Assembly: GCF_000003815.2 (NCBI RefSeq)
Contig: NC_049989.1
Location: 10,247,382 to 10,311,381, forward strand
Direction of reading: 5' to 3'
Origin: Branchiostoma floridae
Lineage: Eukaryota; Chordata; Leptocardii; Amphioxiformes; Branchiostomatidae
DNA: 64,000 nt
Of the stretch, positions 2,181 to 36,229 are shown piece by piece. Positions within the stretch are counted from its first letter, which is position 1. The number at the start of each line of letters is the position of its first letter. Both the position numbers and the translations under genes were made by a program. The notes beneath the pieces are model-generated. The model was given only the letters and a program-made list of their open reading frames with translations, ran no database searches and had not been told where the DNA came from.

Positions 2181-5100
2181 CTCTTCATCAACAACGAGTG
2201 GGTTGACTCCGTGAGCAAGAAAACCTTCCCAACGCTGAACCCCTCTACAGGGGAGGTCATCTGTGAGGTGGCGGAGGGAGACAAGGTAAGTTTGGGAACT
2301 TCAGTAGACAGTCTCAGTCTTAAAAATATTTGTGTTAGCATGTCGGAGTGGAAAAGTAACAGACGAACCACAAAGCAGGGCTCGAAATACTGGGTGCATG
2401 TGCACCCAGGTGCACCCAAAATTGGAGTTGTGCACCCAATTATTTTCTGTGGGTGCAGGGTGCACCCAAATATTTTCTTACGTTTATGTATGTTAAGATA
2501 TCAAAGTATACTAGACATACATCATATTCTTGACATCTAAGTGTTAGAAAGATAATAAGAATGTCTGGCATGGTACTTGTTTAAGAATTTGATAGTATAT
2601 AATTTAACTAGGTTTTGTTATTAGTTTTTTTCTGACATTCTACTTAAATTTAAGTGGTGCACCCAAAAGTTTAGTGACCCAATTTTTTAAGCTGGGTGCA
2701 CCAGTGCACCAAATCCCAAAAACGAATTTCGAACCCTGACAAAGAACAGGCATATGAGTTAATATTATGCAAAATTATTTGTCCCAAAAATATTTATCTA
2801 AGTAGACACAGCATTTTTGCTGCAGGCTTGTTTTGACAAGGCTGCTAGATTTCAAACAAATTGTTTGCAGAAAGTAGAAAGTCAAAGGTGCACATTACAC
2901 AATGTGCTTTACAGTATTTAATATTTTAAAGCCAAAAACCAATTATGCCAAAAGACAAAGAACAATATGAAAATGCTGATTTTGTCCTTGACCTGAAAAG
3001 AATGGAGTCAAAATGCTGATTTCGTCATTAACCTAAAATTTCAGTAAAAGAATGAAGTAAAATTTCTGATTTTGTTCTTTTATAGTTTTAACTGAAAAGA
3101 CTGAACAGTGAAGTAAAAATGCTGATTTTATGCCCCTAGCCCGATGTGGACATTGCAGTGCAGGCAGCGAAGGAGGCGTTTCGCCTGGGCTCCCCCTGGA
3201 GAACAATGGATGCTTCCCACCGCGGTGTGCTGCTCAACAGGCTGGCAGATCTCATGGAACGGGACAGGGAGTACCTGGCAGTAAGTACAGCAATTTTTCT
3301 ATTAATGATCACTGAATGTAAATAAGGGTAAGAGAATCAGTACATATCACACTTTCTACACTTTATTTTTTTAAATGATCATTAATACTTATTAATGATC
3401 ATTTACAAAAATAAAGTCTAGTAAGACTAAGTATAAATGTTAGGCTCAGGGCTAGGGACAGGGAGTACCTGGCAGTTAGTACAGCATTTTGTTTGAATGA
3501 TCAATAGGAATTCGATCCCCAGCCAAGTTGTACCAAAGACTTTAAAAATGGCACAGGCTACTTTCACTAGACCTGCTTAGTACTCAGCATTTGGTATATG
3601 ATTGTTGAACACACAGACCACTACCAGTGGACTAGCCCCCTGCTGTAGTGAGTGATGTGTGTCGCCTGATGCACCATTTGGTGCAGGAAGAACATTAACT
3701 TTAACTATAGATTTAAAATAAGTTAGGGTTATACAGTAAGTACACTGAACTGAACTTAACATAATGATAATCATGCAGTACTTTTTATAGATGATCATTG
3801 GTGTAAGTATAAGAGTAAGGATAAGGGATGTGGAATGCCTGGCAGTAACTACACATCACTTTATGCTACTAGGGCTGTTAGACATTTCATTCTTGTAAAA
3901 TAATTTGATCTCTGTTTTTCCAATAGAACCTGGAGACTCTTGACAATGGGAAGCCTTTCTCAGTGTCTTTTGCCACAGACTTGGCACTCAGCATCAAGTG
4001 CTACAGGTACACTTGACACAGACGATATATGTTCCCTTGCTGCAAACTGTAGGCAGGGTAGGGCTGGGTATCGGTACGGTGTACCAGTACAAAACCGTTC
4101 TTATTGGACTGGTCTGGGAAAAACGGACCTGAAAAAATTCTGTGGACCGGATGTTGAACCTATTGGAAAAAAAAACAGATTATATTATCAGGAATTCACA
4201 CGTTTGGGGGCTTACCTGTTGAAGAAAATAACAAGCAAAGTAGAGGATTTTAAAACAACAGTGCGAGTCGAATGCACAAAAACGATTTTTTTGTACTTTG
4301 AAATGGACTATTGTTTTGATTATCGTCCATTCACATGTTATGACATACTGAATCAAGTCCTCTGGACCTGACCCGAACCTGGACCTGAATTTTCTGTACC
4401 GGTACCCACTCCTACTGTAGGGCAGTACCAGTTGAATAATGAATGAAGACCTTTATTTGACATTTTTGCCAGACTTGGCTAAGTACAGGTCACAAGAAAA
4501 TATGTTGAACAAACCAATACAGTTCACAGATAACATATGACTAAGTATCATTTAGGATCAACTCAACTTCTCCACAGTTTTCAGGCGTAATAGTAGAGAT
4601 AAAAGAGTAGAATATATTTTTTGCTGGTTTGTCATAGTTGCAATTATTTATAATGCTTTATATTGCTAATTTTTATTTCCCATGCATCTCATGGTCAACA
4701 TTAAGTGAAATCAGATGTTTTCACTGTTTTTAAGTCTTCAGAAATTGAGAACTGCTCTCTTTTGCTTTTAATACAGATACTATGCTGGCTGGGCAGGAAA
4801 GAACCATGGCAAGACCATACCAATTGGTATATCGTCATTTTTTTTTTCTTGACCCGTCACTATCATGAAGCTAGGTGCAACTGAATTTCCCAGTGTTTTT
4901 TATGACATGTAACTTCAATATTAAACATTTGAAATCATATAATGGCATGTTTGCACGATGAATAACATTGTAAACTATTTGAATTAAGGTATTTCCTTAT
5001 CGGTAGCACTTACTTATTATGTAAACACCTGCAATGTTTCCTGGAATGAACAACATTTTTGTTGTTTTTATTTTACATTATTTTTCTGTACTATAGATGG

Positions 5101-11100: not shown

Positions 11101-12867
11101 TTACATGTATAATGTTTCTTGTTCTTGTAGATTTTTGGACCTGTGCAGCAGATTGCTCGCTTCAAGGACATAGACGAGGTTGTGGAGCGTGCCAACACCA
11201 ACACGTACGGCCTGGCCGCCAGTATCTTCACATCTAACATCGACAAGGCTCTGTACATGGCAAACTCTCTCCGTGGGGGGACTGTCTGGTATGTTTGATT
11301 TTGATATTATAATATTACTGTAAATTCATTCTTTTTCTTTTTTGTAGATGGAGCTCAAGGTATAGTTTTTGTGGTGCTTTACATGTAAGTTTTGGGTTGC
11401 AACCGTTAAGTAGTACTATTATAGTATTGTTTTTCCAGAATTGAATTGTGGTTTGTTAATAGTATATTTTCATATTTTTACTAGATTGTAATTGTATGTT
11501 TCAATGCTTGTCATTTTTGATTTGGAGTATCATGGATTGAAGAAGGCGTGATAGGCATTATTTTTTAAATATTTTTGTCCATTACTGAAGTTACAGTGTA
11601 ACACGCAATTAGTACATGTATCCAATTAAGCTTGCTAGGAATGTCCCTGACAAAATTGCCTCTCCTATTCTTTCTGGCCTCAATTTTTTTTTTTTATAAA
11701 AATGCATGTAGATCTACAACCAGACTTCATAACATTTTGTCAGGCACTGTCCTTTCATCATATGCCAGTTTGACACTCATGGTACATTATGTTTGTTCCA
11801 TTCAGGGTGAACACGTACGATGTGTTTGATGCTGCGGCTCCCTTTGGAGGCTTTAAGCAGTCTGGTTCTGGACGTGAGCTGGGAGAGTACGGACTGGAGG
11901 CATACACGGAAGTCAAAACTGTAAGAAGATATATTATATGTTTTTAAGAAATGATATTGATGACTTCCATCTAGGGATGTGTACTTGAACAGGAAACTGT
12001 TTTTTCTTGTTGGACCGGTCCAGAAAAAACAGACCTGAAAAAAATCAGTGGACCAGAATTTGGACCAATTAGAAAATAAACAGATTATACCATGTTTTGG
12101 AGCTTACAGGTACAAGAAAATAACAAGAGCAAAGTAGAGGAGAGTTGATAACCATTTTTGCCAATTTTCCACAGTCAAACTTGGTCTAAAAGAGAGGCAG
12201 ACAGTATTGTTTACATGAAGATAGAATTTTTAAACGCCAGTGGACGTTTAAACAAGCAACGTCAAATACTCCACCTGAAAGAGAATCTTTTGTAGTGAAA
12301 TGGACCATTGAATATCATCCATTCACAAGTTTTCACAGATAATTAGGTCCTGGTTAAGGTCCGAGCCTTATTGTAATTATTGTGTGCGAGCAGCTTGACA
12401 AAAGGCTAAAGGGAAAACATTTTGCATTTTTGAGAAAACTTTGCCTTTCTAGTTTAGGCCACACCGATTTAATTTCTTGGTTCACGGATTCGCTCGCTCC
12501 TATTTTTTGGGAAAAAAAAATAAAAATAAAAATTACCACTCAGCAAATTTTCACCATTAATGAAACCATTACCAACTTTCTGGTGTAGCAAATTGGCCTT
12601 TATATAAGCTCCTTAAAGTGTGGGTACAGGTGCTGTTACTGTACAAAAATAGTGTTTTTGTACTTTTTTCAAGCTGAAAACTTTTTTTCTTTATGTTTTG
12701 GATTAGCCGTTACCTTTACCCCAACCATCTTACAATTTTTATTTCGCCCTCTCGCTCCATATTTTTTATGAAAAAATCCGTGAACCAAGAAATTGAATTG
12801 GTGTGGCCTTAAATCTGTTTTCTGTGTTTTTCAGGTGACCATCAGGATTCCGCAGAAGAATGCTTGA
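2181..12867 (+). CDS. Aldehyde dehydrogenase, ALDH1/ALDH2 class (13 exons, N-terminal exon missing)
   Basis: NAD(P)+-dependent oxidation of aldehydes to carboxylic acids; ALDH1/2-class enzymes are homotetramers that act on retinal, acetaldehyde and similar substrates. Exons: 2181-2285, 3140-3280, 3927-4006, 4777-4826, 5097-5158, 6345-6473, 7614-7727, 8018-8117, 8702-8886, 10051-10215, 11131-11288, 11806-11920, 12835-12867. All have AG/GT borders and phases match, giving 478 residues and a TGA stop. Visible motifs: FINNEW at the start, [22 protein letters not shown] (Rossmann loop), LELGGKSP (general-base Glu), GQCCCAGSR (catalytic Cys), [28 protein letters not shown] and the C-terminal QKN ending. 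About 20-40 N-terminal residues are absent, so cytosolic (ALDH1A, retinal dehydrogenase) versus mitochondrial (ALDH2/1B1) location cannot be decided. Introns carry several MITEs and SINE pieces. Class assignment is secure; subfamily is not. Confidence 0.95.
2376..2738. mobile_element. CAGGGCTCGAAAT-type MITE, copy 1 (ALDH intron)
   Basis: A 363-bp element with terminal inverted repeats beginning CAGGGCTCGAAAT and ending in the inverse (slightly decayed). ACAAAG is present on both sides, a likely target duplication. The interior is built of repeated GTGCACCCA-type words. CAGGG/CCCTG ends suggest a nonautonomous hAT-like element. Related copies lie at 7212-7548 and 32677-33024. Confidence 0.75.
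3505..3695. mobile_element. SINE-like interspersed repeat, copy 1
   Basis: It shares the motifs AGTGGACTA, CTGCTGTAGTGA and GCCTGATGCACCA-TTGGTGC with a second copy at about 8975-9245 in the same gene. A GATCCCC/ACCAAAGACT stretch upstream resembles a tRNA-derived head, but promoter boxes are not clear. A shorter related piece is seen near 27603. Confidence 0.45.
4059..4414 (+). mobile_element. hAT-type MITE, TAGGG..GTACCGG family, copy 1 (ALDH intron)
   Basis: The left end is TAGGGCTGGGTATCGGTAC and the right end is GTACCGGTACCCACTCCTA, an inverted pair. CTGTAGG-type sequence flanks both sides. The interior has GACCTG and CCATTCACA words shared with the copy that forms intron 1 of the discoidin gene (35483-35949). 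The TAGGG terminus and 8-bp duplication of that other copy fit hAT transposons. Confidence 0.8.
5399..5633. mobile_element. MITE with CAGGG-TGTAGCCAGC ends, copy 1
   Basis: Ends are CAGGGTTGTAGCCAGC and its inverse GCTGGCTACAACCCTG, 235 bp, in an ALDH intron. The copy at 9368-9707 has similar ends (CAGGGCTTTAGCCAGC) and near-matching flanks AAAGGGTG/AAAGGGTT. That is 8 bp, as expected for hAT. No flanking match is visible for this copy. Confidence 0.75.
5979..6186. mobile_element. MITE with CTGTAAATGCAG ends (CGCGGTGG family), copy 1
   Basis: Inverted ends CTGTAAATGCAG / CATTTACAG are flanked by TA on both sides, suggesting a TA-target (Tc1/mariner-like) element. The interior has palindromic CCACCGCGAA / TTCGCGGTGG words. 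Six copies occur in the window: here, 8448-8635, 14454-14634, 15303-15429, 56198-56414, and one truncated at 60245-60405. Confidence 0.8.
7212..7548. mobile_element. CAGGGCTCGAAAT-type MITE, copy 2 (ALDH intron)
   Basis: Near-perfect inverted ends CAGGGCTCGAAATAC / GTATTTCGAGCCCTG. The interior has repeated GTGCAGGT words in both orientations. The flanks CACTTT / CACATT match at 5 of 6 positions. Confidence 0.8.
8448..8635. mobile_element. MITE with CTGTAAATG ends, copy 2 (ALDH intron)
   Basis: TA-flanked element with the TTCGCGGTGG interior of the 5979-6186 family. It sits about 65 bp upstream of the ALDH exon carrying the catalytic cysteine. Confidence 0.75.
8975..9245. mobile_element. SINE-like interspersed repeat, copy 2
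   Basis: Same core words as the repeat at 3505-3695 (GTGGACTA, CTGCTGTAGTGA, CCTGATGCACCAGTTGGTGC). A short perfect hairpin, CTGCTGCCTACCCCTGA with its inverse, lies inside at about 9062-9105. Confidence 0.4.
9368..9707. mobile_element. MITE with CAGGG-TAGCCAGC ends, copy 2
   Basis: Ends CAGGGCTTTAGCCAGC / GCTGGCTAGACCCCTG, 340 bp. The flanks AAAGGGTG and AAAGGGTT match at 7 of 8 positions, consistent with an 8-bp hAT target duplication. It lies in an ALDH intron. Confidence 0.75.
10277..10524. mobile_element. MITE with CCTAGGAA..TGTTGTGTTTCC ends, copy 1
   Basis: The left arm CCTAGGAAGAAATGTTGTG is followed by TTTCCTG and mirrored by CAGGAAACACAACA then CCTAGG on the right. A larger diverged relative with the same ends lies at about 31233-31759. 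It lies in an ALDH intron. Confidence 0.6.
11972..12368 (+). mobile_element. hAT-type MITE, TAGGG..GTACC family, copy 2 (3' end decayed)
   Basis: It starts TAGGGATGTGTAC and has the family interior (GGACCTGAAAAAAATC, GCAAAGTAGAGGAGAGTTGATA, CCATTCACAAGTTTTCACAG) in the same order as the copy at 35483-35949. The right inverted end is not intact. It lies in the last ALDH intron. Confidence 0.65.
12457..12808. mobile_element. MITE with GGCCACACCGATTTAATT ends, TTAA-type flanks
   Basis: Long inverted ends of about 48 bp begin GGCCACACCGATTTAATTTC. The element is flanked by TTTA on the left and TTAA on the right, suggesting a TTAA target as for piggyBac/Kolobok elements. One arm of the same family is seen at about 21477. 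It ends 26 bp before the last ALDH exon, so it lies next to that exon's 3' splice site. Confidence 0.7.
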
Positions 12868-33031: not shown

Positions 33032-36000
33032 TCATACAAATCGCCCCAGTACTTCCACCCGCATGCAGATGTGAGTCTTCCATGTCACAACCACGAAACG
33101 GACATAGCGTGCAGTGACGGGCTCGACCAGTAGGTGGCGCAGTGGTGTGTCGGTGTCGCTATTCCCTTGCAACACCTGCAGTACAGTTACAAAAAGGAAA
33201 TGTTTCATATGTAACGTCTTGCTCACTGAAAATTTATTCTCTTTAGTTTGTGTACTTTTATCATCAGCAAGTACACAGGTATTATTCACTGTTGGATTAC
33301 TCGCTGTTGCATCTATATATTGGATTCTTAGGGATATTTTATTGCTTCCTAGACATATCATATTTACAGGTTCGCGATAGCAAAACCTATTTCAAACGAA
33401 ACCAGGTCTGTAGATGCCAATATCTTGAGATTTTGACATCTTCCTGCAGCCTGTCTGTGTTCCAAGCGACAAATCTGTCTGCAGTACCGCCATGGATTAC
33501 TATTCGGCGCTTCCATACCACCGAGTTGCTTAATACTAGTACTTAGCCTAAAGGAAACACAAAACCTATTGTCAATTTCTGTCAGATCGCTACAAAAAAT
33601 CACCCCGACAATTAAATGTAACTTCAACACCTATACTGGAAGAAATTTGGAAATATAAAAAAACAAACATCATACTTAATATAAAGTACCCAATAACAAT
33701 AAAATAGTCACTCGTAAAAATCATGTCAACTTCTTCCCCGACATAGATTACACTAAAACGCGAACTAGTACTTGCTTGTGCCGAGACCTATTACTAGGAT
33801 TCATAGTTAACCGTATCAACTTATCGGTGTTAAGACACTAGTACAATACCTTTTCTCGCCCAGCTCTGTCCGTGTAAGGTCGCCAGGTGTCGCCGTCGGT
33901 GCTGAAGTGCAGTTTGTAAGTGGTGACCCACTCGACATAGTCACGGAACCGGCCTTGTGTCACCACACCCCACACCTCGGCTAGCTTCCCTAGGTCAATC
34001 TGTGAAGAAAATGTATGGACATTTATTCACTTTTCCCACATATAACTGAAGAATCTAGCCTGATCAAATCTCACTTATAGCAGCCCACCCATCATCCGCC
34101 GCCCCCCTAGTGTATAGCGGGGAGGGGCTGGTTACAGCACTTAACATCGGAGTTTGTGTTACACAGACTAGACAAAAATCCGTTTCACTGAAAAACAAAC
34201 CTGACAACCTTGGACCTGTCCAATAAAAACGGACCTGAAAAAAAATCAGTGGAGAGGACTTTCGGCCGATTAGAACATGAACACATTATTTCGGCAGGTG
34301 TCGACACATCCAGGACCGAATCTGGACCTGACCCCGGTACCTGTACCAGAATTTTCTGTACCGGTAACCACCGCTAATCTGTATATATACTCCGAGGCCT
34401 TCCCCGATGATACGGCAACGGAAAGCTATAGTAATTGTAATATACCAGTGCAAATGTGCCCTCTCTTAGAGTAATCTTATACCACCTCTTTTAAGCTAAG
34501 GGCACAACCCGCCGCACGTGCAATTTGCCCGTACGTTTTTTGGGGAGGCCACGTCCGCCACGTATTTCTGAAAGCGTTCAGGCTGCATAGGGCAGGCACG
34601 TACTGGCAAGTACAGGGGGCGAACCCGCAGCCCGATGGCACACAAAGTTTTGCCTGCACGCAAAGTTCTACGGCGTGTCAAAATCCGTTGGATTCCCTAC
34701 ACGTTCGTACGGAGACGGTACTTACCACTTACGGGTCCCAAAAGATTGCCCACGTTTTGGCACGTAGACAGTACGTATTTGCACGTACGGCGGGTTGTGC
34801 CCTTAGCTTTACTCACCTGGAGCCACTGGTTCCCATCGTTCGTTTTAGCGCACCATCCCCCGATACCACCGCCGTCTACCGCGGTGTACAGACGGCCTCT
34901 CCTTGGTCCGTGCTGATCGTTGTACTCCGATGAAGCTGTCATCTGGGCGTCAGGGATCGCACCGGACTCAACACCGAGGGGATTCGGCCCTGTAGCAATA
35001 CATAATCACCGAGGAATCCTACTGCAGTAGCAAAGAAAGTCGCTAGGGTCCATAATCTTAGAATGTCTTCATTTTGCCAACGTCTTTTCGAGTTGTGCTG
35101 TTCACAAACAAACAAACTAACTAACACACAAAATCACAATCAATCAAACAAACAGACAAACAGATACATAGACCGGCAAACAAACTTCTTGGCGAAGGTA
35201 ATAGCAGTAAAATTACAACGATATTTACTAAGAAGCGTTGAATATTTCCATCGTAATCTGTTGTAAGCTCCGACTCCGGGCTACTCTTGACTACTATACA
35301 AAGGCCGATCCTCCATTGACCTACCTTTTATTTCCCAAATCATCCTCTCTGTCGCTTCTTGTAACTGTTGGTCCAACTTGTGTGAAAGAACGGTTGTCAA
35401 GTTGAACGCGAGGGTTTTGATTCCTTCTGACGAGCTCACTGGCCCCGAGACGTCGTCTAGCCGCTTGCTGACCACCTGTAAGTAGGGGTGGGTACCGGCA
35501 AAGAACATTCAGTTATACAGGTACAGTCCAGGTCAGAGGATCAGGTCCAGGTCCGGACCTGAACCTGGACCTAGTCATCTGTGAAAACTTGTGAATGGGT
35601 GATACATACTGAAAACAATGGCCCATTTCGCTACAAATGAATCTGTTTGATGGAGTATCCGACGTCCACTGGCGTTTTAAAATGTAATGTCTTAATGTAA
35701 ACCTGCCTCTTAGACCACGTTTGACTGTAGAAACTTGGCAAATATAAGTATCAACTCCCTTCTACTTTGCTTATATTGTCTTCGAGCTGTAACTTAGTGT
35801 AAGCCCCAAAACACGTAAACGCCTGTCGGTATAATCTGTTCATTTTCTAATCGGCCCAAAATCTGGTCGTAATTTTTTCAGGTCTTTTATTTTTGCACTG
35901 GTCCAACAAGAAAAAAAAAACGGTTTTGTACCGGTACGACCTACCCCTACCTGTAAGGTGTTCTTGAGGTGATGGAGGAGGTTGGTAGAGGTGCCTTTCC

Positions 36001-36229
36001 ATGTCAGTAACGCGTCCAGGTCCGACTGCATGCGGCCCACACTGTCGCAGGTCTGGCGGTCGGCTGGCGCGGGCAGCGCGCAGTTACAGGAACAGCGAAC
36101 GTTGGGAGCGCGGTGGTCGCCATCTTCTGCCGAAGTGGTCACCTCTGACTCTAGCGGTTGTGCGTCACCCAGAACCGAGCAAAGACAAACTAGAATCATC
36201 AAAACTATCTTTAGGTCTATGTGAGCCAT
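33032..36229 (-). CDS. Secreted single F5/8C (discoidin) domain protein, 298 residues
   Basis: Probable secreted, glycan- or lipid-binding protein. Exons from 5' to 3': 36229-35951, 35475-35325, 34989-34817, 33999-33850, 33175-33032; phases 0, 1, 0, 0 all match, and the stop is TGA at 33034-33032. The ATG at 36229 was chosen because MAHIDLKIVLMILVCLCSVLG is a good signal peptide; the open frame extends further upstream but without such a start. Residues 25-143 hold a Cys-rich patch (RCSCNCALPAP) and a helical, hydrophilic stretch that may oligomerise. The F5/8C domain spans about 145-295, with NPLGVESGAIPDAQMTAS, GGWCAKTNDGNQWLQIDLG, YKLHFSTDGDTW and VRFVVVTW. The usual cysteines at the two domain ends are absent. 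Intron 1 is an exact MITE insertion. It lies 2.9 kb beyond the receptor kinase on the same strand; a functional link is unproven. Confidence 0.88.
34180..34376 (+). mobile_element. hAT-type MITE, TAGGG..GTACC family, copy 3 (partial)
   Basis: The right end of the family (GGACCTGACCCCGGTACC, then TTTCTGTACCGGTAACCACC) is preserved, as is part of the interior (AAACGGACCTGAAAAAAAATC). The left end is missing. It lies in intron 3 of the discoidin gene, in opposite orientation to the intron-1 copy. Confidence 0.65.
34493..34809. mobile_element. MITE with AAGCTAAGGGCACAACCCGC ends, copy 1
   Basis: A 317-bp inverted-repeat element, AAGCTAAGGGCACAACC to GGTTGTGCCCTTAGCTT, with many CGTACGTGC-type words. 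It starts just inside the 5' splice site after exon 3 of the discoidin gene, leaving GTGAGT intact. A second copy lies at about 58491-58826. Confidence 0.85.
35483..35949 (-). mobile_element. hAT-type MITE that constitutes intron 1 of the discoidin gene
   Basis: Read on the minus strand, the element runs from TAGGGGTAGGTCGTACCGG to GCCGGTACCCACCCCTA, 467 bp, flanked by exact 8-bp copies of CTTACAGG (35950-35957 and 35475-35482). The 5' splice-site GT is made of the last base of the first target copy and the first base of the element. The 3' splice-site AG lies within the second target copy. The intron (475 bp, 35476-35950) therefore equals element plus one target copy. Related elements are at 4059-4414, 11972-12368 and 34180-34376. 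Confidence 0.93.

Follow-up and report, generated by a model that had tools for sequence, protein, structure and literature searches.

How did the first intron of a discoidin (F5/8 type C) gene in the lancelet Branchiostoma floridae come to consist of one transposon plus one copy of its target word? The gene lies on the minus strand of the window analysed here, i.e., the whole stretch of 64,000 nucleotides at G000:C11:10247382-10311381; genome-wide searches covered 513 Mb on 431 contigs. We conclude, with a probability of about nine in ten, that intron 1 arose in a single step, through insertion of a hAT-like miniature inverted-repeat transposable element (MITE) into exon 1. We read the case as introner-type intron gain by a hAT-like MITE, and the family as what is most likely an old introner family.

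Structure of the gene and its first intron

The following features, all on the minus strand and given in the order of transcription, make up the locus.

35951..36229, minus strand: exon 1, coding part, of the discoidin (F5/8 type C) gene; 93 codons, ending ...ACC TTA CAG
35950..35957, minus strand: target duplication, copy 1, CTTACAGG; its final G supplies the G of the GT donor, its other seven bases are exonic
35476..35950, minus strand: intron 1, 475 bp, GTAGGG...CTTACAG, phase 0, equal to the element plus 8 bp; predicted to be spliced
35483..35949, minus strand: MITE, 467 bp, a non-autonomous, hAT-like inverted-repeat element, TAGGGGT...ACCCCTA
35475..35482, minus strand: target duplication, copy 2, CTTACAGG; its first 7 bases are intronic and include the acceptor CAG, its last G opens exon 2
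35325..35475, minus strand: exon 2, followed by a phase-1 intron common to the paralogue
34817..34989, minus strand: exon 3, in which the F5/8 type C domain starts, followed by a phase-0 intron common to the paralogue
33850..33999, minus strand: exon 4

The target word reads CCTGTAAG on the plus strand and is present at 35475-35482 and 35950-35957 with 8/8 identical bases. On the minus strand, ACCTTACAG closes exon 1 and GTGGTCAGC opens exon 2, while the element between them has the ends TAGGGGTAGG...CCACCCCTA. With a slash for the splice site, the donor is CAG/GTAGGG and the acceptor CACCCCTACTTACAG/G. Joining the flanks yields an open frame with the spliced product ...KNTLQ/VVSKR..., whereas with intron 1 retained, translation would stop at residue 130, 37 codons past the 93 of exon 1. 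The first-pass annotation had described the intron as a 467-bp element plus one 8-bp target copy, with a GT donor straddling the first copy and the element, an AG acceptor within the second, and a frame that is restored by removal and stopped early by read-through; our reading of the borders and of the joined frame bears out each of these statements.

The joined product carries an F5/8 type C domain (Pfam, E 3.8e-18). Exons 1 to 4 encode a start that resembles a signal peptide in our own reading of the sequence, a short Cys-rich and helical segment, and this domain.

Intron 1 has its splice-site words assembled from target and repeat, by an insertion with an 8-bp duplication. In the proposed course of events, a non-autonomous hAT-like MITE inserted into exon 1; in the sequence, CTTACAGG is duplicated, the final G of the first target copy and the first T of the element form the GT donor, and the CAG of the second copy forms the acceptor. 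Since the element starts with T, a GT..AG intron results at any target that ends in AGG, and removing it leaves exactly the pre-insertion message. Excision by the U2-type spliceosome would make the insertion nearly neutral, and it could then have been kept and fixed.

Evidence for intron gain

A search of the joined protein against the whole genome gave five matches, i.e., the two exons of the gene itself and three other places. The best paralogue, on C12 (L010), is matched unbroken over residues 1-143, and the insertion site is continuous within a single open frame of 195 amino acids. Its junction reads CTCAAGAACTCCTTACAGATGGTG compared to CTCAAGAACACCTTACAGGTGGTC in the spliced window gene; the uninterrupted site is AACTCCTTACAGATGGTG. 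Over the first four exons, both genes share 145 of 249 residues (58%), and the next two introns of the C12 paralogue have the same phases, 1 and 0, as those of the window gene. Two remoter paralogues on C4 (27% and 32% identity; E 6.5e-6 and 8.8e-5) are open through the site as well. Among these four genes, intron 1 is thus present in the window gene only. Because the three paralogues are uninterrupted at the site, intron 1 is best read as a gain made by insertion of the element.

From 249 codons of the window gene and the C12 paralogue we obtained a synonymous divergence (dS) of 1.13 and a nonsynonymous divergence (dN) of 0.30. Their ratio of 0.27 indicates that the gene was constrained during most of that divergence; it spans the whole divergence of the paralogues, beyond the time since insertion.

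Search for further introns

The rule that the target ends in AGG implies that other cases should be findable by pattern. The donor-side pattern AGGTAGGGGTRGGTAC had 46 matches, 40 of which were fetched; the six omitted were four from a single tandem array and two from small contigs. Under permissive criteria, the 3' end was found in 28 of the 40, and 26 of the 28 joined open reading frames (ORFs) were scanned against Pfam, leaving aside one duplicate and one ORF of 10 residues. Upstream flanks were read for the 12 copies without a 3' end and for 4 others. Only L055 gave a clear Pfam match in this set, two others falling below the cut-off (E 0.022 and 0.093). A further 28 ORFs, of which 10 came from unselected copies, 16 from the donor set and 2 from downstream flanks, had no Pfam match at E 0.01.

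The acceptor-side pattern ACCCACCCCTANNNNNAGG had 55 matches, and 45 were looked at: 10 in stretches already fetched, 6 with both flanks (chosen for good acceptors) and 29 on the downstream side, of which L115 was then followed upstream. The clean cases among these 45 are the window, L055, L096 and L098. The four clean cases are a lower bound, since for 28 of the 45 just one flank was inspected, and only for an obvious coding frame.

The intron of L055 (432 bp) has the duplication CCCCCAGG, identical in 8/8 bases, and lies within a vWA domain that Pfam recognises through the join (E 1.2e-21). L096 holds a 452-bp intron which splits a P-loop AAA exon, with a join of 46/47 and the duplication CACTCAGG/CTTTCAGG (6/8). 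In PDB, midasin matches best (E 1.8e-12, residues 7-55), followed by cytoplasmic dynein 1 heavy chain (E 8.1e-11, residues 1-68), and both matches cross this join. Several P-loop families match in Pfam, T2SSE best (2.6e-6) and AAA_5 lower (7.9e-5), so the gene can be placed no more closely than as dynein- or midasin-like. L098 carries a 413-bp intron in an IL-17-like gene, with a join of 59/60 and the duplication CCATCAGG (8/8); the genome has one other, weak match (29%, E 0.0075), which is continuous across the join.

The four clean cases lie in four unrelated genes, belong to one family and were read from DNA rather than from gene models. All four introns, 475 (window), 432, 452 and 413 bp long, have the form CAG/GT...CAG/G in phase 0, with 68-82% pyrimidines in the 22 bases preceding the final CAG. 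They would thus pass as U2-type GT-AG introns by their GT donor, AG acceptor and pyrimidine-rich 3' end. The element has the same orientation in 4/4 clean cases, compared to 14, L055 included, of the 38 orientable copies (of 40) from the donor-side pattern; the bias is only suggestive because L096 and L098 came from another pattern.

The first-pass annotation had put forward a hAT-type MITE family as a possible source of introns, and had asked for a genome search for introns bordered by the element and its duplication. The search supplies three more such introns (L055, L096 and L098), and together with the empty-site paralogue these exon-splitting copies support the proposal. At least three more introns, in vWA, AAA-ATPase and IL-17-like genes, seem to owe their origin to this family by the same route.

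Further candidates were rejected or left ambiguous. L087 is an ordinary intronic copy. L068, in a carboxylesterase-like gene, seemed to be a fifth intron; it was rejected, since there is a better donor about 10 bp further upstream and other intron sequence precedes the next exon. The exon of L095 is similar to voltage-gated potassium channels (Pfam Ion_trans E 0.0059, below the cut-off); the 3' end of the element provides the acceptor, no clear coding frame runs up to the element in its 5' flank (L119), and we left the case ambiguous. The L095 copy itself is interrupted by what we read as a tRNA-like short interspersed element (SINE). In L115, a coiled-coil exon starts at the acceptor, seven bases past the 3' end of the element, and upstream lies a second, nested or tandem copy (L120); the two are possibly a decayed fifth introner. 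Because of L095, L115 and L068, adjacency of element and exon alone was not counted as proof.

Element family and its age

Three further copies in the window, which the first-pass annotation had listed, proved to be real, with somewhat different borders in two of them.

4059..4414, plus strand: copy of the MITE family with an internal deletion
about 11979..12363, plus strand: partial copy of the MITE family
34210..34376, plus strand: decayed copy in intron 3 of the discoidin gene, as two matching pieces, 34210-34298 and 34321-34376

The last of these is an ordinary intronic insertion. Intron 3 also contains a different inverted-repeat element at 34493-34809, with 31-bp arms that are 97% complementary; just 7 bp separate one arm from the end of exon 3.

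Genome-wide, the 14-base end GGTACCCACCCCTA occurs 1,983 times, compared to 3 occurrences of a reversed-pattern control. This is not a count of elements, because each element has two ends and some of the matches lie in tandem arrays. From 5,210 first-look candidates, 40 copies were scored, the window's included. The 39 others, which were fetched, are 72-78% identical to the window copy, which may explain why similarity searches could miss families of this kind. By permissive criteria, 18 of these 39 show, beside repeat-like ends, an 8-bp duplication with no more than 2 mismatches, and 21 show none. Without one haplotype duplicate and three copies whose repeat ends are poor, 14 of the 18 targets remain, with T at position 2 in 8 and A at position 7 in 9 (binomial 4.7e-4 against a background of 0.29). 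The hAT target preference is nTnnnnAn; the window target agrees with it at T2 and not at A7.

The putative assignment to hAT is based on the 8-bp duplications, the inverted repeats and the T2/A7 target bias. The family has these duplications, short terminal inverted repeats and this bias in common with MITEs of the hAT superfamily. Many hATs start with CA, whereas the lancelet family starts with T, which gives the donor its second base.

Divergence from the consensus was measured for 66 of 85 loci, the other 19 having no long enough match. The median Kimura two-parameter distance (K2P) is 0.151 (15.1%); the window copy stands at 0.155 (15.5%), L096 at 0.186, L098 at 0.202 and L055 at 0.225. 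With the mutation rate of 5.89e-9 per base per generation given in PMC12862219, the distance of the window copy corresponds to about 26 million generations at most, which is an upper bound if the copy stems from a subfamily. Judged by the median divergence, the family is old and probably not recently active, contrary to the first-pass annotation, which had called it active or recently active.

L014 on a chromosome (C3) and L036 on a small contig (C169) have the same flanks and the same insertion, and C169 looks like an alternative haplotype of the place. The copy with an AGG target at L078/L079 occurs twice with its flanks on C13, about 0.39 Mb apart and on opposite strands; the identical flanks indicate that the place was duplicated. 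The terminal repeat is also found in tandem arrays, e.g., at G000:C1:192835-193308 and G000:C2:34946530-34946653, with spacings in multiples of 20 bp and 36 bp. These arrays are a transposon end turned satellite-like.

Alternative explanations

It might be argued that the element is an unspliced, gene-breaking insertion, i.e., a null allele or a young pseudogene, whose GT and AG are there by chance. Retention does mean an early stop, and splicing is deduced here from DNA. Against this stands the K2P of 0.155 compared to the median of 0.151, which makes a young element unlikely, together with the intact frame on both flanks. After an unspliced insertion of such age, exons 1 and 2 (430 bp) would be expected to have collected some 67 changes (our own arithmetic), yet they are without stop or frameshift, though the divergence of the element is on a par with that of other copies. 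An old element within an intact flanking frame fits removal by splicing. As the splice-competent AGG target moreover recurs in three other genes, we regard a broken gene as highly improbable. Even less credible is a landing in an existing intron, with element ends that match the intron borders by accident. The family does have intronic copies (L068, L087 and the one in intron 3 of the discoidin gene), but intron sequence should then remain on at least one side, whereas coding sequence reaches the duplication from both sides. Besides, the intron is missing in three paralogues, and the coincidence would have to recur in three other genes.

An ancestral intron could, in principle, have been lost separately in the paralogues by precise loss through reverse transcription, and intron loss is generally common. 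Here the closest paralogue retains the next two introns at the same phases, and the intron in question is wholly transposon plus target duplication, unlike an ancestral intron. We give this explanation hardly any chance at all.

Several observations nevertheless weigh against the creation of intron 1, and of its counterparts, by MITE insertion. The donor GTAGGG lacks the A at +4, which is a common base of the donor consensus. In the predicted fold, the donor is paired within the inverted-repeat stem, the start of the intron with its end; such pairing may bring the splice sites together or hinder recognition of the donor. That the element is spliced at all is something we infer from the sequence. 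The polarity of the gain is drawn from paralogues only, within one lancelet species, and the dN/dS ratio reaches back beyond the insertion. As to the other genes, L096 has two mismatches in its 8-bp duplication, while L098 has a damaged 5' repeat and a Pfam IL17 match below the cut-off (E 0.005); its PDB match to IL-17F has E 0.00095, and all IL-17 matches lie downstream of the join. Neither L119, the 5' flank of L095, nor L120, upstream of L115, shows a matching duplication, and L068, as we read it, landed about 10 bp within an intron that apparently already existed.

Taking all this together, we still favour one-step creation of intron 1 by the MITE. We also lean, with clear reserve, towards a wider reading in which this hAT-like MITE served as an introner throughout the genome of the lancelet lineage up to tens of millions of generations ago. 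It would have made perhaps ten or more introns by the AGG-target rule, the survivors favouring one orientation (that with the TTTTCTG-type tract at the 3' end) and phase 0 after a CAG codon.

Relation to known systems

Introner elements were reportedly described by Huff et al. 2016, and MITE-derived introns in larvacean tunicates are said to have been found by Henriet et al. 2019. The larvacean introns likewise belong to a chordate and are attributed to mobile elements; the borders of the lancelet introns are canonical. Introners are thought to account for bursts of intron gain, and a rule-bound case with an empty-site paralogue in an invertebrate chordate would put this route of intron birth near the vertebrate stem. 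Among the papers listed in searches of open-licence literature, none reported introners from this MITE family in lancelets, which is not proof of absence.

A gained intron of the amphioxus PRHOXNB gene with the MITE LanceleTn-2 is mentioned in PMC5802833. It shares with our case the lancelet host and a gained intron containing a MITE; it is a single case, compared here through this citing mention only.

The survey of Gozashti et al. 2022 (PMC9860276) gives introners in 175 of 3,325 genomes, with just two animal groups among its 835 animal and land-plant genomes. The words cephalochordate, lancelet, tunicate, chordate and hAT do not occur in the main text of PMC9860276. Its pipeline kept families with at least four similar introns, a minimum that our four clean cases reach, here from DNA and not from gene models. 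With the introners of that survey, as portrayed there, the lancelet family has in common a non-autonomous DNA transposon with inverted repeats and a target duplication, insertion into an exon that yields an intron, splice sites derived wholly or partly from the target, an unchanged length of the message, and an aquatic host (PMC9860276). It differs from them in its cephalochordate host, and in that its clean introns, four in number, make up only a small part of a family that is large and old.
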